From NCBI GenBank assembly GCA_024695505.1, contig JAILIB010000139.1:1-39716 (forward strand): a DNA stretch of 39,716 nt. Direction: 5' to 3'. How positions within the stretch are numbered: position 1 is the stretch's first letter; each line of letters opens with the position of its first letter. Origin of the DNA: Saccharofermentans sp. GTDB taxonomy: Bacteria > Bacillota > Clostridia > Saccharofermentanales > Saccharofermentanaceae. Positions 1 to 14,407 of this stretch are shown piece after piece. The position numbers and the translations under genes are program-made. Below the pieces are notes generated by a model. That model worked only from the letters and a program-made list of their open reading frames with translations. It was not told the DNA's origin and did no database searches.

Positions 1-969
1 CTGCAGGTTGCGGGAAAGATCCTGAGTTCGGGCGGGATCCACGTTACCGCGCTCAAGTCCGGAAACGCTCTCTTCGACTATCTCGATAAGGAGACCGAGC
101 TTCCGAATCTTATCCTGCTTGACGTGAAGATGCCTGAAATGGGCGGCTTTGAAGTTATTAAGAGACTGCATTCCCTTGAGTCTGAGGCATCCAGGATCCC
201 CGTTGTATTCCTTACGGCTGATGAGAGTGAAGGTGCTGAACATGAAGGCCTTTCGCTAGGCGCAAGTGACTTTATCAGAAAGCCTTTCGTACCCGATGTC
301 CTCCTGCTCAGAGTCAACAACCTGATCGAATTGAACACATTGAAGAATCAGCTTTACGGCGAGATCGAGAGCAAGACGCGTGAGAACAAGGCGATGTTCA
401 TGCAGGCGATCGGCGCGCTTTCCGCAGCGATCGATGCGAAGGATACTTATACGAGCGGTCATTCGAGCCGTGTCGCGGAATATTCCAAAATGATCGCCAA
501 GAGGGCAGGTTACTCCGATGCGAAACAGGATGAGATCTACATGATGGCTCTAATGCACGACGTTGGAATGATAGGCGTTCCGGGTGCTGTACTGCATAAG
601 CCCGGCAGGCTCACGCCTGAGGAATATGAACAGATCAAGAAGCACCCGCAGTCCGGAGCTGACATCCTCAAGAGCATTGACAGCGATCCGAAGATCGGGA
701 TCTGTGCCCTTCAGCATCACGAAAGATATGACGGAAGCGGATATCCGGCAGGCCTTAAGGGGGACGCGATCCTTGAAGAGGCAAGGATAGTTGCCGTGGC
801 GAATGCTTACGACGCGATGTCTTCCGACAGGATATACAGGGACAGGCTCCCGCAGCAGGAGATCATTGAAGAGATCAGGAGCGGAATGGGAACGCAGTTT
901 GATCCGAAGTTCGCAGAGATCATGCTTGAGATCATTGAAGAAGACAAAGCCTATGAGATGAGAGGTTGA
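1..969 (+). CDS. Response regulator with REC domain and HD-GYP c-di-GMP phosphodiesterase domain (5' truncated by window edge)
   Basis: Frame 1 is open from base 1 (LQVAGKILSSGGIHVTALKSGNALFDYLDKE...NLILLDVKMPEMGG), so the ATG at 124 is internal. HD motif MMALMHDVGMIGVP and GYP motif HHERYDGSGYPAGLKG are present. Confidence 0.93.
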   Translation: MQVAGKILSSGGIHVTALKSGNALFDYLDKETELPNLILLDVKMPEMGGFEVIKRLHSLESEASRIPVVFLTADESEGAEHEGLSLGASDFIRKPFVPDVLLLRVNNLIELNTLKNQLYGEIESKTRENKAMFMQAIGALSAAIDAKDTYTSGHSSRVAEYSKMIAKRAGYSDAKQDEIYMMALMHDVGMIGVPGAVLHKPGRLTPEEYEQIKKHPQSGADILKSIDSDPKIGICALQHHERYDGSGYPAGLKGDAILEEARIVAVANAYDAMSSDRIYRDRLPQQEIIEEIRSGMGTQFDPKFAEIMLEIIEEDKAYEMRG

Positions 970-974
970 CCCAA

Positions 975-3524
975 ATGAGTACAAATGACAAGGACCTTTT
1001 CCAAACATCGCACCTCACCATCCTGGTAAGCTACACGATCTTCGCAACTATACTGGTCGCCGAATCCCTTCTTCTCGGATGGGAAAAATGGGCGCTTCTT
1101 CTTATCATTTGCGGGATCATTGCCGCCTGGATCCTTCACATCAGGCATAATACTCCGTCTAATATACGTTTAACTCTTTATGCAGTCCTTATGATGGGCT
1201 GCTATTTTTTCTATGGCGTGCATCAGACCAGTACGTTCGATCTGGCGCTGGTAATGGCTGCCATCATCATGCTTCATACGATGACTGGCAGAAAGGTGTT
1301 TATAACTCTGTGCCAGTTTACGTTCTACCTGACGATGGCATATGAAGTGGTTACCATGATCGGCAACGGTGAAGTCTTTGACGTACTTGTCATTTCGCGT
1401 TGCGTGCTCCATTTCGCGATGGTCTTCTTCATCGGAATGTTCGCCAAAAAGATCATCGACAAGTGGATGCAGGTCCTCAACAAGTCCAAGGATGAAGTCG
1501 AGCAGCTTACCGAAGCAACGGAACATCTTAACGATTTCCTTGCCAACGTTTCACATGAGCTGAGGACCCCGGTAAACGCGATCATCGGTCTTACTACCCT
1601 TTGCATCGAGAAGTCCAGACACCGTGAAGTCGAGAATGACCTTATCGCGGTAAGGGATTCGGGCAGAAGGGTCGCAGAGCAGATCGGTGACATTCTGGAT
1701 TACTCCGAGATCGACCGTAAGAAAGCGGTCTGCAACAACGAGGACTACATGATGTCCTCTGTTCTCCACGATCTTGTCACGGATGTCAAGCAGTACAAGT
1801 CAAAGCACGTCGAGCTCATCATCGACGTTGATCCTTCGATCCCCGCGGTAATGAATTCAGACGTTGCCAAGATAAAGAAGATACTGAGGGCGCTTATAAC
1901 CAACGGCCTCAAGTACACGCAAAAGGGAGGCGTTTATGTAAGGATCACCACAGAGCCCCAGGATTACGGTGTCAACCTCTGTATAGAAGTCACTGATACC
2001 GGCAAGGGTATGACCGACTATGAGCTCGAGAAGGTATATGACAGCTTCTATCAGGCTGACTCCTCAAGATCGCGCCAGGGAGGAGGCTTGGGCCTGGGCC
2101 TCGCCATAGCTTCCGGCTTCGTGGCTCTCCTCGGAGGCTTCATGACGATCGAGAGCAAGCCTGATGTCGGAACGACGGTCAACGTCAGTATCCCGCAGAA
2201 GATCATCGATCCTCTGAGCTGCATGTCCGTTGCGGCTCCGGACAAGCTTGTTCTGGGCGCTTTCCTCCATTTCGAAAAATACGACCATCCGGCCGTACGC
2301 GACTACTACAACTCGATGGTCCTTAACATTGTCAAGGGTCTTGGCATACAGATGCACCGTGTTAACAACGCGCAGAACCTGAAGCTTTTGCATGACACGA
2401 TCCATCTGACGCACCTTTTCATTGCTGAAGAGGAATACAATGACAACGTTGACCTTATCGAGGATCTTGCAAAGGAAATGGTCGTTGCGGTCGTTGCCAA
2501 CGAAGGCATGATCCTTCCGAAGAACACGCACGTAAGGGTTCTCGAGAAGCCGTTCTACTGCTTCCCCGTCGTATCCATCCTGAATTCCTCGGTCGACACC
2601 AAGGAAGAGACGGTTAAGAAGCTTCGCTGCGAAGGCGTCAGGGCGCTTGTCGTTGATGACGAGTCCATGAACCTCGTTGTTGCCAAGAGTATCTTCGGCA
2701 GGTACGGCATGAAGGTTTATACCGCGACTTCCGGACAGGAATCCATCGATATCTGCCGTGAAAAGGTATTCGATATCATCTTCATGGATCACATGATGAG
2801 CGGCATGGACGGCGTTGAAGCGATGAAGCGCATCAGAACGGACGTTGCCGGCCTTAACGGTTCGATACCTGTAGTCGCGCTTACCGCAAACGCGATGAGC
2901 TCTGCCAAGCAGATGTTCCTTTCTGAAGGCTTTGACGGTTTCGTAAGCAAGCCGGTCGAGATAGAAGAACTCGAAAGAGTGTTAAAGCAGGTTCTCCCGA
3001 AGTCCGCGATCTCTTACGTTGATGCAAACGGCGTTATCGAGGAAGCGGCTGACGAGCCTGAAGAACCTGCACCTGCACCGGCTGCTGTACAGGAAAAGGA
3101 TTTCGTGAACGAGCTTCGTAAGTGCGGCATCGATACAGAAGCAGGCCTTAAGTACTGCGTGGGTGACAAGGAGTTCTACAAGTCGCTGCTCATTCAGTTT
3201 GCTACGGAGTCTGCCGACAAGATCGGTTCGATGAAGAAGTACTACAACTCGCGTGACTGGCACAATTACGAGATCCTCGTTCACGCCCTGAAGAGCACCG
3301 CCAAGATGATAGGCATAGCTGACCTGTCCGAGAAAGCCAAAGCTCTTGAGCAGGCGGCAAAACAGAATGACGCGAACTACATCCTTGAGAATCACGAGCA
3401 GATGATCAAGGATTACGGCCGCATCACGGCTGACATCAGGGAGCAGATCCTCTCTGATGATAAGGACGAAGATGACGACGTGTTTGAGTTTGAACCTGAG
3501 ACAGACGGAGGTGACAAGGTATGA
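975..3524 (+). CDS. Membrane hybrid histidine kinase (TM sensor, HisKA, HATPase, REC, Hpt)
   Basis: H-box FLANVSHELRTPVNAIIG; ATP lid GGGLGLGLAIASGF; REC VDDESMNLVVAKSI...IIFMDHMMSGMDGVEAM; Hpt YEILVHALKSTAKMIGI. ATG at 975; a TTG at 966 overlaps the upstream stop. Confidence 0.9.
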   Translation: MSTNDKDLFQTSHLTILVSYTIFATILVAESLLLGWEKWALLLIICGIIAAWILHIRHNTPSNIRLTLYAVLMMGCYFFYGVHQTSTFDLALVMAAIIMLHTMTGRKVFITLCQFTFYLTMAYEVVTMIGNGEVFDVLVISRCVLHFAMVFFIGMFAKKIIDKWMQVLNKSKDEVEQLTEATEHLNDFLANVSHELRTPVNAIIGLTTLCIEKSRHREVENDLIAVRDSGRRVAEQIGDILDYSEIDRKKAVCNNEDYMMSSVLHDLVTDVKQYKSKHVELIIDVDPSIPAVMNSDVAKIKKILRALITNGLKYTQKGGVYVRITTEPQDYGVNLCIEVTDTGKGMTDYELEKVYDSFYQADSSRSRQGGGLGLGLAIASGFVALLGGFMTIESKPDVGTTVNVSIPQKIIDPLSCMSVAAPDKLVLGAFLHFEKYDHPAVRDYYNSMVLNIVKGLGIQMHRVNNAQNLKLLHDTIHLTHLFIAEEEYNDNVDLIEDLAKEMVVAVVANEGMILPKNTHVRVLEKPFYCFPVVSILNSSVDTKEETVKKLRCEGVRALVVDDESMNLVVAKSIFGRYGMKVYTATSGQESIDICREKVFDIIFMDHMMSGMDGVEAMKRIRTDVAGLNGSIPVVALTANAMSSAKQMFLSEGFDGFVSKPVEIEELERVLKQVLPKSAISYVDANGVIEEAADEPEEPAPAPAAVQEKDFVNELRKCGIDTEAGLKYCVGDKEFYKSLLIQFATESADKIGSMKKYYNSRDWHNYEILVHALKSTAKMIGIADLSEKAKALEQAAKQNDANYILENHEQMIKDYGRITADIREQILSDDKDEDDDVFEFEPETDGGDKV

Positions 3525-6247
3525 AAGGCATTTTAAGATATCTTTTCCAGCCGTCGAAAAATGACCGTGAGGCAATTAAGTCCGCTTATTACGAGTCCGT
3601 CGCACCGACGCGCGTCACGATGTATCTTGCCCTTGCGGCAGCCATCACTTTCCTGGTACTGACGTTTGTATATCCTTCGTATTTCGGAGGAACCACTGTT
3701 CTCTACCACCAGATCTGCTATGTCTGGGTAATCCTGGTAGCCGCTATCTGGCTGCTCGGTATCCGCAACGCAATGAAGGACTATCAGGCCAGATACCGCA
3801 CCGTCTTTGTGCTTAACCACTTTATGGGAGTGTCACTCTATCTTTGGGTAGTATCTCTCATGATCGTCAACAGCATGGCCAGAGGCACCGTTGATACAAC
3901 GCTCTTCATGACCGTTGCACTGGTTGTTCCGCTTTGCGTATATCTGAACCCGATCGTATATGTCGTGATCGCGGTCATATCGAACGTCGGAGTCATCTCA
4001 TTCCTTTATTACATGGTCTCAAAGGGATCCATCGAACAAAACGAGATGGCAAACTTCCTTATCTTCTCTGTATTCCAGGTCGTAATGGGTCTCATAATGT
4101 CCTATACGAGGTTCAGGCTGAACGAACAGCTCGTTACCGCGGAGAAGCAGCGTAAAGAGATATACATGCTCAACAAGTCGCAGACGAGTTTCTTCTCAAA
4201 CATGAGCCATGAGATCAGGACTCCTATCAATACGATCATCGGCCTTAACGAGATGATCCTCCGTGAGGACGTCAGTGAGGAAGTCATAGAGGATGCAGTA
4301 AACATTAAGGCCGCAGGCAAACTCCTCCTTAACCTCATCAACGACATCCTCGACATGAGCAAGTTCCAGTCGGGAAGCATGCAGCTCCTGATCGAACCTT
4401 ATCACACGGGAGACATGCTCTCGGACATCGTCGGAATGCTCTGGATCAGGGCCAAGGATAAGAAGCTTGAATTCAATGTTGATGTTTCTCCTGACATTCC
4501 TGCGGAGCTTATCGGTGATGAAGTAAGGATCAAGCAGATCCTGATCAACGTCATCAACAACGCCATCAAATACACGAAGGAGGGATCTGTCTCCCTGACC
4601 GTCCAGTGCGAGAGGCCCGATGAAAAGACCTGCAACATGATCTACACGGTCTCCGATACCGGTATCGGCATCAAGTCGGAAGATATCCCGTACCTGTTCT
4701 CCGCTTTCAAGAGAGTCGATGAGACGGTTACCAAGCACATTGAAGGAACAGGTCTGGGCCTTTCGATCGTTAAGCAGCTTGTGGACATCATGGGCGGAAA
4801 GATCACCGTCAACAGTATCTACAAGAAGGGTTCAACCTTTATCATCGAGATCCCCCAGAGGATCGAACGCCAGGGCTCTGTCGGTTCTTACGATTTCACC
4901 AAGACCGGAAAAGCCGAAAAGAGAAAGGGTTATACTCCCAAGTTTGAAGCTCCCGAGGCCAGGATCCTGGTAGTCGACGACAATGAGGCCAACCTCATGG
5001 TCGTAAGCAAGCTCCTGCGCGACACGAAAGTCCGTATCGATACTGCCACGAGCGGCGCAGAAGCTTTGAGAAAAACGCTCAACATCAAATACAACGTTAT
5101 CTTCATGGACCATCTCATGCCTGAAATGGACGGCGTTGAGTGCAGAAGAAAGATAAAGGAACAGACGGGCGGAAGATGCCGTGAAACACCGATCGTCATT
5201 CTTACAGCGAATGCCGATGAAGAGAACAGGGCGCTCTATGCCCGTGAAAACTTCGACGGCTATCTGTCGAAACCGGTAAGCGGCGATGCTCTCGAAAACG
5301 AGCTGTATGCCCATCTCCCGAAGGAAATGGTCCACATTACCGGAAAGAAGAGCGAGATCGCTGAAGAGTCCATCTCCTGGATGAGCGGCGCAAAGAAGCG
5401 TAAGAGCATCGTGATCACTACGGAGAGCGTTGCGGATCTTTCGCCTGAACTTATTGAAAAATACGGAATCGCGGTCATTCCCCACAAGGTCCGCACGGAC
5501 GAGGGACTCTTCAAGGACGGCAAGGAGATCGAGACCCTGGGTGTCCTCAAGTACATGGAAAACCCGAAGAACAACGTTCTCCCGGAAGGCCCGACTGTAA
5601 GGGAAGTCGAAGAGTTCTTTGCAAAGCAATTGTCTTATGCAAACAACATTATCCATATTTCGATCTCCAGCAAGATCGAGCACAGCGGATACCAGCCGGC
5701 TCTTGAAGCATCAAGATCATTCGACAACGTCTTCATCATCGATTCGGGACACGTTTCGAGCGGTCAGGGCCTCATGGCGGTCATCGCGGCGAAAATGGTC
5801 GAAGAAGGCCTCTCTGCTGAAGAGATCGTCAAAGAACTCGAAGTCTATAAGAAAAAGATCCACACCAGCTTCATCGTTGACAATCTTGACTTCCTCGCGC
5901 GTGCGGGACAGGTCGGAAACGGCATAGCAAACCTCGTCAAGTCGCTTATGGGACGACCCGTATTAAGGCTGCGCAACGGCGTTATGGGTGTCGGAATGAC
6001 TTATTTCGGCGCCAGGGAGATCGCCTGGAAGGCATACATCAACTCCGTTCTGACGCATACCGCAAAGATCGACACCAGCATCCTTTTCGTAACCTACGTC
6101 GGCATCAGCAAGCGCGACACGGACTGGATCAGGGAGCAGATCGAGAAATACCAGCATTTCGATGAGATCTACTTCAAGCAGGCGTCACCTGCAGTCTCGG
6201 TCAACTGCGGCCCGGGTACGTTCGGTCTGTTGTTCGTAGAGAAATAA
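3521..6247 (+). CDS. Membrane hybrid histidine kinase fused to REC and a C-terminal DegV-family domain
   Basis: H-box FFSNMSHEIRTPINTIIG; HATPase GTGLGLSIVKQLVDIMGG; REC VVDDNEANLMVVSKLL...IIFMDHLMPEMDGVE; from about 5396 DegV-like KRKSIVITTESVADLSPELIEKYGIAVIPHKV...IIDSGHVSSGQGLM...TSFIVDNLDFLARAGQVGN. ATGA overlap with upstream gene. Confidence 0.92.
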   Translation: MKGILRYLFQPSKNDREAIKSAYYESVAPTRVTMYLALAAAITFLVLTFVYPSYFGGTTVLYHQICYVWVILVAAIWLLGIRNAMKDYQARYRTVFVLNHFMGVSLYLWVVSLMIVNSMARGTVDTTLFMTVALVVPLCVYLNPIVYVVIAVISNVGVISFLYYMVSKGSIEQNEMANFLIFSVFQVVMGLIMSYTRFRLNEQLVTAEKQRKEIYMLNKSQTSFFSNMSHEIRTPINTIIGLNEMILREDVSEEVIEDAVNIKAAGKLLLNLINDILDMSKFQSGSMQLLIEPYHTGDMLSDIVGMLWIRAKDKKLEFNVDVSPDIPAELIGDEVRIKQILINVINNAIKYTKEGSVSLTVQCERPDEKTCNMIYTVSDTGIGIKSEDIPYLFSAFKRVDETVTKHIEGTGLGLSIVKQLVDIMGGKITVNSIYKKGSTFIIEIPQRIERQGSVGSYDFTKTGKAEKRKGYTPKFEAPEARILVVDDNEANLMVVSKLLRDTKVRIDTATSGAEALRKTLNIKYNVIFMDHLMPEMDGVECRRKIKEQTGGRCRETPIVILTANADEENRALYARENFDGYLSKPVSGDALENELYAHLPKEMVHITGKKSEIAEESISWMSGAKKRKSIVITTESVADLSPELIEKYGIAVIPHKVRTDEGLFKDGKEIETLGVLKYMENPKNNVLPEGPTVREVEEFFAKQLSYANNIIHISISSKIEHSGYQPALEASRSFDNVFIIDSGHVSSGQGLMAVIAAKMVEEGLSAEEIVKELEVYKKKIHTSFIVDNLDFLARAGQVGNGIANLVKSLMGRPVLRLRNGVMGVGMTYFGAREIAWKAYINSVLTHTAKIDTSILFVTYVGISKRDTDWIREQIEKYQHFDEIYFKQASPAVSVNCGPGTFGLLFVEK

Positions 6248-6268: not shown

Positions 6269-6303
6269 AAAAGAGGCATTCACGTAAGGAGTGCCTCTTT
6301 TCT
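6269..6303. terminator. Intrinsic terminator, probably bidirectional, between convergent genes
   Basis: aaagaggca-ttcacgtaaggag-tgcctctttt stem with flanking A and T tracts. Confidence 0.75.
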
Positions 6304-12086: not shown

Positions 12087-13781
12087 ATGAATCGATTTGC
12101 AAAAAAGCTGACTGCGACGGCAGCAGCACTGGCGATCTTATTGGCGGTACCTGCTGCGGCGGCACCGTCGTTTGTTGTTTATGCAGACGAAGAAGTCCAG
12201 GAGACCGAAGCTCCGAAAACCACAAAAGTTGCTGAAACGACAAAACCCAAGGAAACCGTTAAAGAAACAAAGTCGGCTTCAAAGCCTGATGAAACGGTTA
12301 AGGAGACCGAACCTTCCAAACCCGCAGAGACTGTAAAAGAGACTGAACCCTCAAAGCCGGCTGAGACAACTAAGCCGACTGAGCCCTCAGATACTTCCAG
12401 GAAGGGAGAACCGGAAGAGACGACAGCTCCTTCAGAGCCTTCCGGAACGAAGGAATCCACAGAGCCCGAAGAGACCAAAGAACCTTCCGAAACAACTTCC
12501 GGAGAGACGGAACCTTCAAGATCTTCTGAACCTTCCGAGACAACTGAGCCTGAAGTTACTGAAACGATAGCACCGAGCCGCGCGGCTAAAAAGGCGGCCA
12601 GAGGCCAGTACCAGGGCATAACGATCGACGGTAATTTCTCCGATTGGGACAGTGTAGTCAAATATGATTTCTCCGGCCGCCCGAACAGCCATGTCAATTA
12701 TGGCGCCCTTGTTTGGGACGGAGACTATATCTACATTTACCTCGAAGAACAAAGAGCTCACTCTTCCACCTGGTCCGGCCCCAACAACAACGGTAATTTC
12801 GTCATCAAGCTCAAGAACGGTATCGACGTTGTTGTAAGCATTACCGACAAAGGGCAGCAGAACGGAAACAAAGTAAGTGTTTCCAATACAAAAACTGGAA
12901 CGGTATTGACCACCGAAAACGGCGGCATCCAGATCGCGTATGATAAGGATTATTACACCGAGGGACGTCCTTCTCTGATGGAGATCGCCATACCGGCATC
13001 CATTCTTCCCGAAAATACACAGAGCATATCGTTCGGTTATTATCTTGATGATCCCGTCATAAAGAATGTTGCAAATCCTCATCCGACCGGCGGTCAGGGC
13101 GGCGAAGGTGAAGAAAATGACGGAAGCAAGATAAAGATCGACGGATACTATAGCGACTGGCTTAATTTCCCGCACCAGACCATCGAATATGATACCCAGG
13201 GTGCTCATCATAATTTTGCCGATGCTCATGGAGCTATCTACCAGAAGAGCGCCAAGACGGTATATGTTCATGCAAAGACCAATGACTTCATGGAAGGCCC
13301 TCCGGATTACTATGGCGGCAACCAGTTCCTTGAGATCACGGTAACTCTGGCAGGCAGGGAGACCAAGATGGTCGCATGTCTTGTCGATGAAAACGGAAAC
13401 ATCAATTGGAATTCGTCCGAGAATGACAAGCATTATGCTAAAGGCAAATACAAGTTTGCTTTGTTTGAGCAGTCCGGCTGGCATCAGACAACGAACATGA
13501 ACAACATCCATCCGAATGATACTTTCTACGGATATCAGTATCTTGAAGTCGGCGACAGGGTTGACGAAACGGAATTCAGCATAGATACAAAAGCGCTGGC
13601 TAAGCATCTCGGACTGAATCTGACTCAGGCCGCCGAGCTCAAGGTATTATTCCACCGTGTCGGCCGTGAACCGCTTATCGCTTCAGGCATCTCGACAGGC
13701 CCGGTATTTACGCTCGTTCTTACTACGGTAGCGGCAGGTTCGTATTACGTTTTCACGCGTAGGAAGAGAAGGCAGGCTTGA
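12087..13781 (+). CDS. Secreted surface protein: signal peptide, long E/T/P/S linker, two IDGxxSDW domains, Firmicu-CTERM-like sorting signal
   Basis: Signal peptide ATAAALAILLAVPAAAAPS; ETVKETEPSKPA repeats; ITIDGNFSDWDSV and IKIDGYYSDWLNF; C-terminus STGPVFTLVLTTVAAGSYYVFTRRKRRQA (TM plus basic tail). Confidence 0.85.
   Translation: MNRFAKKLTATAAALAILLAVPAAAAPSFVVYADEEVQETEAPKTTKVAETTKPKETVKETKSASKPDETVKETEPSKPAETVKETEPSKPAETTKPTEPSDTSRKGEPEETTAPSEPSGTKESTEPEETKEPSETTSGETEPSRSSEPSETTEPEVTETIAPSRAAKKAARGQYQGITIDGNFSDWDSVVKYDFSGRPNSHVNYGALVWDGDYIYIYLEEQRAHSSTWSGPNNNGNFVIKLKNGIDVVVSITDKGQQNGNKVSVSNTKTGTVLTTENGGIQIAYDKDYYTEGRPSLMEIAIPASILPENTQSISFGYYLDDPVIKNVANPHPTGGQGGEGEENDGSKIKIDGYYSDWLNFPHQTIEYDTQGAHHNFADAHGAIYQKSAKTVYVHAKTNDFMEGPPDYYGGNQFLEITVTLAGRETKMVACLVDENGNINWNSSENDKHYAKGKYKFALFEQSGWHQTTNMNNIHPNDTFYGYQYLEVGDRVDETEFSIDTKALAKHLGLNLTQAAELKVLFHRVGREPLIASGISTGPVFTLVLTTVAAGSYYVFTRRKRRQA
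12252..12386 (+). repeat. In-frame tandem repeat encoding ETVKETEPSKPA-like units in the linker
   Basis: ETVKETKSASKPD/ETVKETEPSKPA/ETVKETEPSKPA/ETTKPTEPSD read directly in the translation. Confidence 0.8.
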
Positions 13782-14407
13782 AGATAGTTATTGCCATTCT
13801 GGCTGTTTTACTGTGGATAGGTCTGCTTGAAATCCTGCGCAGGGCGGGTCTCAAGTTTTGGCGCTATCTCGCCGGAAGCTGCGGGCTTTTTCTTATCTTG
13901 ATGATCCTGGTCCGTCCCTTTGTAACCGTCCCGCTTGCGCGTGTCGTAACGGCTCTTGCAGGGATCATGGGTAAGGTGACCGGGATCTTTCAGGCGTATT
14001 TCAGATATGGCGTCATTTTCATAGATTCAGCGTCAGGAGCCATCACCGTCAACATCGATCTTGAGTGTTCCGGAGTGATCGAAATATCAGCCTTTATTTC
14101 TCTCCTGTTTCTTTTTTCCGTTTATAACATCCCCGAACGCATTTATGTCGGAGTCATCGGAACGCTTTACACGATACTTACGAATGCTCTGAGGATCACG
14201 ATCATCTGCGTGTTCATCCATTTCTGCGGAACGGATTTCTATTATGTTGCCCATACGTTTATCGGAAGGATCATATTCTATGTCCTTCAGGTCATCTTAT
14301 ATTTCTATGTTTTCACCAGACCCCAGATAAAGAGAACGAAGACCGGAGGTTTCTCATATAATGCCGCCGGTACTGCGAAAGCAGTCGAGGAGGAAGAAAA
14401 GGCATGA
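13778..14407 (+). CDS. xrtG: Exosortase family protein, XrtG type
   Basis: 209 aa multi-TM protein; triad C97 (DLECSGVIEISAF), R139 (TNALRITIICVF), H159 (YYVAHTFIGRIIFY). TTG start overlapping the upstream stop (TTGA). Adjacent to a CTERM-bearing protein and XrtG-associated genes. Confidence 0.85.
   Translation: MKIVIAILAVLLWIGLLEILRRAGLKFWRYLAGSCGLFLILMILVRPFVTVPLARVVTALAGIMGKVTGIFQAYFRYGVIFIDSASGAITVNIDLECSGVIEISAFISLLFLFSVYNIPERIYVGVIGTLYTILTNALRITIICVFIHFCGTDFYYVAHTFIGRIIFYVLQVILYFYVFTRPQIKRTKTGGFSYNAAGTAKAVEEEEKA

Follow-up and report, generated by a model that had tools for sequence, protein, structure and literature searches.

A complete DegV domain forms the C-terminal end of a hybrid histidine kinase that is encoded at positions 3521-6247 (+) of the window, i.e. 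the whole stretch of 39,716 nucleotides analysed here. The safest claim that its sequence appears to permit is that the clade to which it belongs lost every residue typical of the fatty-acid-binding FakB proteins, the catalytic arginine included, with the fold left intact. The gene is the last of three overlapping genes, which encode a putative c-di-GMP response regulator (gene 1), an HK-REC-Hpt kinase (gene 2) and the HK-REC-DegV fusion (gene 3). Judged by the order of the genes and their domains, a single phosphorelay is the simplest interpretation: a kinase without Hpt domain and a kinase with Hpt domain would share the latter. The replaced residues and this arrangement together suggest that a lipid-binding fold may have been turned into a signalling part.

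The frame of gene 3 runs through 908 codons without interruption, beginning with an ATG within an ATGA overlap with the stop codon of gene 2, and its product is a multi-TM histidine kinase followed by REC and by a complete DegV domain. In Pfam searches the domains appear in the order HisKA (residues 221-285, 2e-15), HATPase_c (332-447, 3e-27), REC (482-594, 3e-22) and DegV (630-907, 6.5e-45), every one of them well over its cut-off. The input end (residues 1-205, nt 3521-4135), which was delimited by hydropathy, conservation and helices, contains about six hydrophobic helices and represents the least conserved part of the protein, with a mean column identity of 0.40; no sensor domain was recognised there. 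In the kinase part (HisKA and HATPase_c, nt 4172-4870), the features of hybrid histidine kinases, namely His230, Asn347 and the G1 and G2 boxes, are kept in 79/79 members of the gene 3 family, apart from one N-box Asn that is kept in 77/79. The same complete conservation (79/79) applies to Asp486, Asp487, Asp530, Thr562 and Lys584 of the REC domain (nt 4961-5320). The linker between REC and DegV (nt 5321-5401) contains a conserved EExISWM segment, of which Trp620 is invariant across 41 sequences; its residues 610-626 have a pLDDT below 50 in the predicted model.

The DegV domain (residues 630-908, nt 5408-6244) starts at about nt 5396-5408, which agrees with the start near 5396 and the full length that the sequence-only reading had assigned to it. 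Its membership in the DegV fold family is clear from Pfam PF02645 (154 bits vs a cut-off of 27) and from NCBIfam TIGR00762 (162 vs 99.7 bits). The predicted domain has a mean pLDDT of 90.7 and superposes over its full length on solved FakB/DegV structures; Foldseek returned 1vpv, 2dt8 and 4x9x with E-values of 1e-23 to 1e-24, and the TM-scores amount to approximately 0.8-0.9 (at best 0.88/0.89), or 0.80-0.88 when calculated by query length. The model of full-length gene 3, with a pTM of 0.41, is too uncertain for statements on domain packing. A likely intrinsic terminator with a 13-bp stem, a 7-nt loop and a U-rich stretch (nt 6269-6301, +), called by consensus scan only, would close the cassette.

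At least 586 loci related to gene 3 were found when species genomes were scanned, and the counts for the close family refer to 80 of them that were fetched. The full HK-DegV fusion exists in one frame of ~890-920 aa in 78/80 fetched loci, which together with the open frame and the Pfam and NCBIfam domains corroborates the single HK-REC-DegV frame claimed before. A fused-DegV profile (E <= 1e-60) has matches in 69 of the 115 genomes searched from the window's family, almost always within long frames, and the class-wide search with such a profile found matches in 10 of 391 genomes. Another family of the class (f28, with Lachnospiraceae-like matches) reached 101 of 397 genomes at E <= 1e-50; among 139 places listed for this family, frames of at least 700 aa occur in 91 and frames of 1000-1300 aa in 18. 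The matches outside the class in a phylum-wide search are free-standing proteins of ~290-390 aa. The HK-REC-DegV architecture is not rare, being present in the window's family and in many Lachnospiraceae-type genomes. Moreover, purifying selection on the DegV part is strong: dN/dS amounts to 0.016-0.093 in six pairs, within the range of the other domains, which rules out that the domain is decaying. At one locus (L001:2241-4967), kinase and REC are almost identical to the window (pS 0.00-0.03) and the DegV part is diverged (pS 0.48), a pattern that corresponds either to recombination between REC and DegV or to a chimeric MAG contig.

The functional residues of the fold can be judged from Staphylococcus aureus FakB2, in which Thr61, Ser93 and His266 reportedly form the carboxylate network, Arg170 is said to be the invariant catalytic residue and Arg202 is reported to dock FakA. 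In the window, Thr61, Ser93, Arg170, Arg202 and His266 correspond to Pro, Glu, Gln, Phe and Asn; for the 202 column, the pairwise alignment is shifted by a one-residue gap that is resolved in multiple alignments. Gln occupies position 170 in 79/79 close fusions, Asn occupies position 266 in all 78 close fusions that reach it, and position 202, Phe in the window, varies among Phe, Ile, Val and Met in the close family. The Thr61-Ser93-His266 network is absent from the window and intact in 0/79 close fusions, and the complete set of five residues was found in no fusion examined, close or distant. All five residues are kept in 13/13 members of the closest free-standing clade and in the four solved references, and Arg170 is present in all free-standing controls, including both DegV genes of the window's genome. 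Among the distant fusions, many have retained Ser61, Ser93 and Arg170 (SSRxN) but not 202 and 266, hence the FakB site was remodelled by degrees.

The two free-standing DegV genes on contig 67 of the same genome (L081/L082/L084), which also carries a FakA gene, have Ser or Ala in place of His266 and Lys or Thr in place of Arg202, so that of the FakB set only Thr61, Ser93 and Arg170 are kept in them. The argument that loss of Arg202 and His266 proves the absence of FakB function was dropped, as the genome's own DegV genes near FakA also lack both residues. In this genome, the residues that discriminate are only Arg170, Ser93 and Thr61, with Arg202 being weak. Within the DegV fold, 61 of 290 columns are invariant in 13 diverse sequences, among them Gln172 and Asn270 (domain numbering), which align with Arg170 and His266 of FakB. 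The strict conservation of these new residues, taken with the low dN/dS values, indicates a changed and probably working site rather than a decayed one. Since all five FakB residues are replaced, it is unlikely that the window DegV presents acyl chains to FakA, and the idea of a FakB working together with FakA was demoted after this comparison. The "recognisable DegV motifs" of the sequence-only reading hold for the fold but not for the function, and its FakB-like binding is largely contradicted, with regard to carboxylate binding and FakA presentation, by the absence of the ligand residues. On the features tested, we class gene 3 with hybrid kinases and its C-terminal domain with the DegV fold family but not with FakB.

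With regard to function, the cassette is more informative than DegV alone. The earlier reading had placed gene 3 correctly but had missed the two overlapping genes upstream of it. Gene 1 is cut by the contig start, its frame being open from nt 1, and its 3' part of 323 codons (nt 1-969, +) encodes a REC domain and the HD-GYP end (Pfam HD_5, 3e-36). Full orthologues of ~786 aa, one of 786 aa being found in L002, have the order REC-GGDEF-x-REC-HD-GYP, shorter forms among the relatives are REC-GGDEF(-REC) or REC-HD-GYP, and the GGDEF and HHExxDGxGYP motifs are mostly intact in gene 1 relatives. In the HD-GYP domain of the window, VANAYDAM is found where most orthologues have VADAYDA; if that Asp of VADAYDA is a metal ligand, the window and L002 may have a weakened phosphodiesterase. 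The unassigned segment separating GGDEF from the second REC of the regulator (L003:1992-4349, residues 300-440, and its orthologues) may be a second, degenerate GGDEF, as Pfam shows two GGDEF stretches in the L154 orthologue.

Gene 2 (nt 966-3524, +) overlaps the end of gene 1 with its start and encodes a multi-TM HK-REC-Hpt protein (Pfam HisKA, HATPase_c, REC and Hpt), which is probably the holder of the phosphotransfer histidine of the cassette. An HK-REC-Hpt gene adjoins the fusion in 76/78 close loci, and a gene 1 relative was found in 68/78, the missing ones including loci that are cut by contig ends. Flanking DNA was available for 28 more distant loci, and each of these cassettes contains an Hpt, normally on the partner kinase; in L101 and L157 the adjacent HK-REC is without Hpt and the Hpt is located behind DegV instead, and in L100 and L164 it resides on a separate REC-Hpt protein. 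In approximately half of these 28 loci the gene just upstream encodes a GGDEF or HD-GYP regulator, and in several a lone REC. Taken over all loci, close and distant, most have a GGDEF and/or HD-GYP response regulator as upstream gene and others a lone REC. As some cassettes are flanked by nothing more than a lone REC, or by no gene recognised as a regulator, c-di-GMP is not the universal output, and a single output of this kind for all cassettes was rejected. One locus (L153:7751-13140) contains two HK-REC-DegV genes in tandem with an Hpt-bearing kinase on either side.

DegV itself takes four positions in the same system: C-terminal, which is the common one, in the interior between REC and Hpt (L101 and L157), N-terminal, or encoded by a separate gene. 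A 1578-aa protein (L156:3808-8544) has the order DegV-dCache-dCache-HK-REC-Hpt, with DegV at residues 7-283. In L099, from the window's genus, a separate DegV gene of 285 aa directly follows the genes for HD-GYP-REC and HK-REC-Hpt proteins. In a tree of 75 DegV domains, 55 of them fused, all 55 fused domains fall on one side of a branch (94/83); the operonic copy of L099 joins them on a long branch (100/98), apart from other DegV proteins, and is either a pre-fusion form or a later split. Judged from these positions, DegV is a module of the cassette and not only the tail of a REC domain, and its N-terminal and free-standing occurrence favours a regulator or sensor over a strictly REC-gated output.

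These data are somewhat better explained than not by gene 3 being an accessory hybrid kinase without Hpt, in which DegV would sense a ligand or act allosterically and which would feed a shared Hpt with usually a c-di-GMP output. The phosphoryl group would pass from His230 to Asp530 within gene 3 and then to the Hpt of gene 2, which the equivalent sites of gene 2 would use as well, and from there onward to the REC domain or domains of gene 1, the GGDEF/HD-GYP response regulator that would set the c-di-GMP level in this organism. The pairing of both kinases we infer from the adjoining genes. The DegV domain, as a non-FakB member of the fold, would most likely bind a hydrophobic or amphipathic ligand or the partner kinase, and this binding would tune the phosphoryl flow, i.e. 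DegV would serve as an input or allosteric part and not as an output. However, its place after REC, classically an output position, counts against an input module. Lipid status may yet be coupled to signalling via gene 3, given the retained fold and the conserved clade of single origin.

Other explanations deserve discussion. A protein-interaction or scaffolding module, which anchors gene 3 on gene 2 or at the membrane and has no signalling ligand, is rather unlikely; the loss of the FakB ligand residues in the window clade, the conserved REC-DegV linker and the movement of DegV between proteins of the cassette would fit a docking part, whereas the many invariant residues inside the fold, Gln172 and Asn270 among them, and the fixation of new residues suggest a changed site rather than decay. 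It appears improbable that DegV is the output of REC, with phosphorylation gating a FakB-like presentation of fatty acids to FakA and the relay controlling lipid synthesis; of the alternatives, this one comes nearest to the FakB view of the sequence-only reading. The position of DegV behind REC, its complete fold and the presence of a FakA gene in the genome are in line with such an output, but all five FakB residues are replaced in the window, Arg170 even in every close fusion, FakA adjoins its own DegV gene on another contig, and DegV is also found at the N-terminus of a kinase-Hpt protein and encoded on its own. Finally, the genome is fragmented into 199 contigs, and a fusion produced by assembly or frameshift from two neighbouring genes was considered. 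The chance of such an artefact is negligible, and it was rejected, because 78 other, independent loci show this frame with matching domain boundaries, including isolate contigs such as JHXJ01000001 (L009) and FNPA01000007 (L019).

Comparison with known systems helps to place the proposed accessory kinase. In Xanthomonas, the five-TM HK-REC-Hpt protein RpfC drives the REC-HD-GYP phosphodiesterase RpfG, and a fatty-acid signal (DSF) acts via the phosphorelay to lower c-di-GMP (PMC4504480). Genes 1 and 2 resemble this pair as a REC-HD-GYP regulator and a multi-TM HK-REC-Hpt in one operon. In contrast, the window adds another hybrid kinase, which carries DegV, gene 1 usually contains GGDEF besides HD-GYP, and RpfC reads its signal through the five-TM input domain and has no DegV fold. 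The DSF parallel for the cassette is suggestive, since DegV is a fatty-acid-binding fold. In Pseudomonas, LadS phosphorylates GacS and RetS inhibits it (PMC5992135), and the proposed likeness lies in one Hpt-bearing hybrid kinase that is modulated by other hybrid kinases, which the architecture and the presence of an Hpt in the cassette would fit. The output of that network is GacA/Rsm, though, it has no DegV and its kinase genes are unlinked. The best PDB matches for the gene 3 kinase part include the kinase regions of GacS, RetS and ShkA, a similarity of fold that is generic for hybrid kinases. With BarA/GacS-type hybrid kinases gene 3 shares HisKA-HATPase-REC with intact residues, but a C-terminal DegV replaces the second REC or the Hpt. 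FakB1/2 of S. aureus and DegV of B. subtilis share the whole-domain fold at ~23-25% identity; the window DegV differs in its fusion to a kinase, the five replaced functional residues and its separate clade. In agreement with the earlier statement that no characterised example was known, literature searches found no characterised DegV linked to a histidine kinase or to c-di-GMP.

More tentatively, and with the odds rather against it, a single recruitment event in Clostridia could have made DegV the cytoplasmic sensor, for a lipid or a metabolite, of a phosphorelay with two kinases that controls c-di-GMP. This would be the Gram-positive and intracellular equivalent of how RpfC/RpfG sense DSF. 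Should the role proposed for gene 3 be right, part of the large DegV family gains a function outside fatty-acid kinase, and a lipid-binding fold becomes tied to the control of c-di-GMP in Clostridia of gut and rumen, which are abundant but poorly studied. As the conserved three-gene cassette encodes ligand, relay path and output together, these ideas are directly testable.

The genome context gives further background. The FakA gene on contig 67 encodes 538 aa and has one DegV gene directly upstream and the second on the same contig, hence the usual task of the fatty-acid kinase is covered by genes elsewhere in the genome. Moreover, 29 GGDEF matches in the genome speak for extensive c-di-GMP signalling. 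In a different locus (L102:684-6284), a free-standing DegV that retains the complete FakB residue set adjoins a 1570-aa protein downstream of a sigma54-type activator; by eye, this protein looks like a fusion of Ser/Thr kinase, AAA ATPase and LuxR-type parts, and no FakA was evident among the ORFs listed there. Apart from the cassette, the window contains a complete Gram-positive exosortase pair (nt 12087-14407), in which a Firmicu-CTERM sorting-domain protein (12087-13781) is directly followed by the exosortase XrtG (13778-14407).
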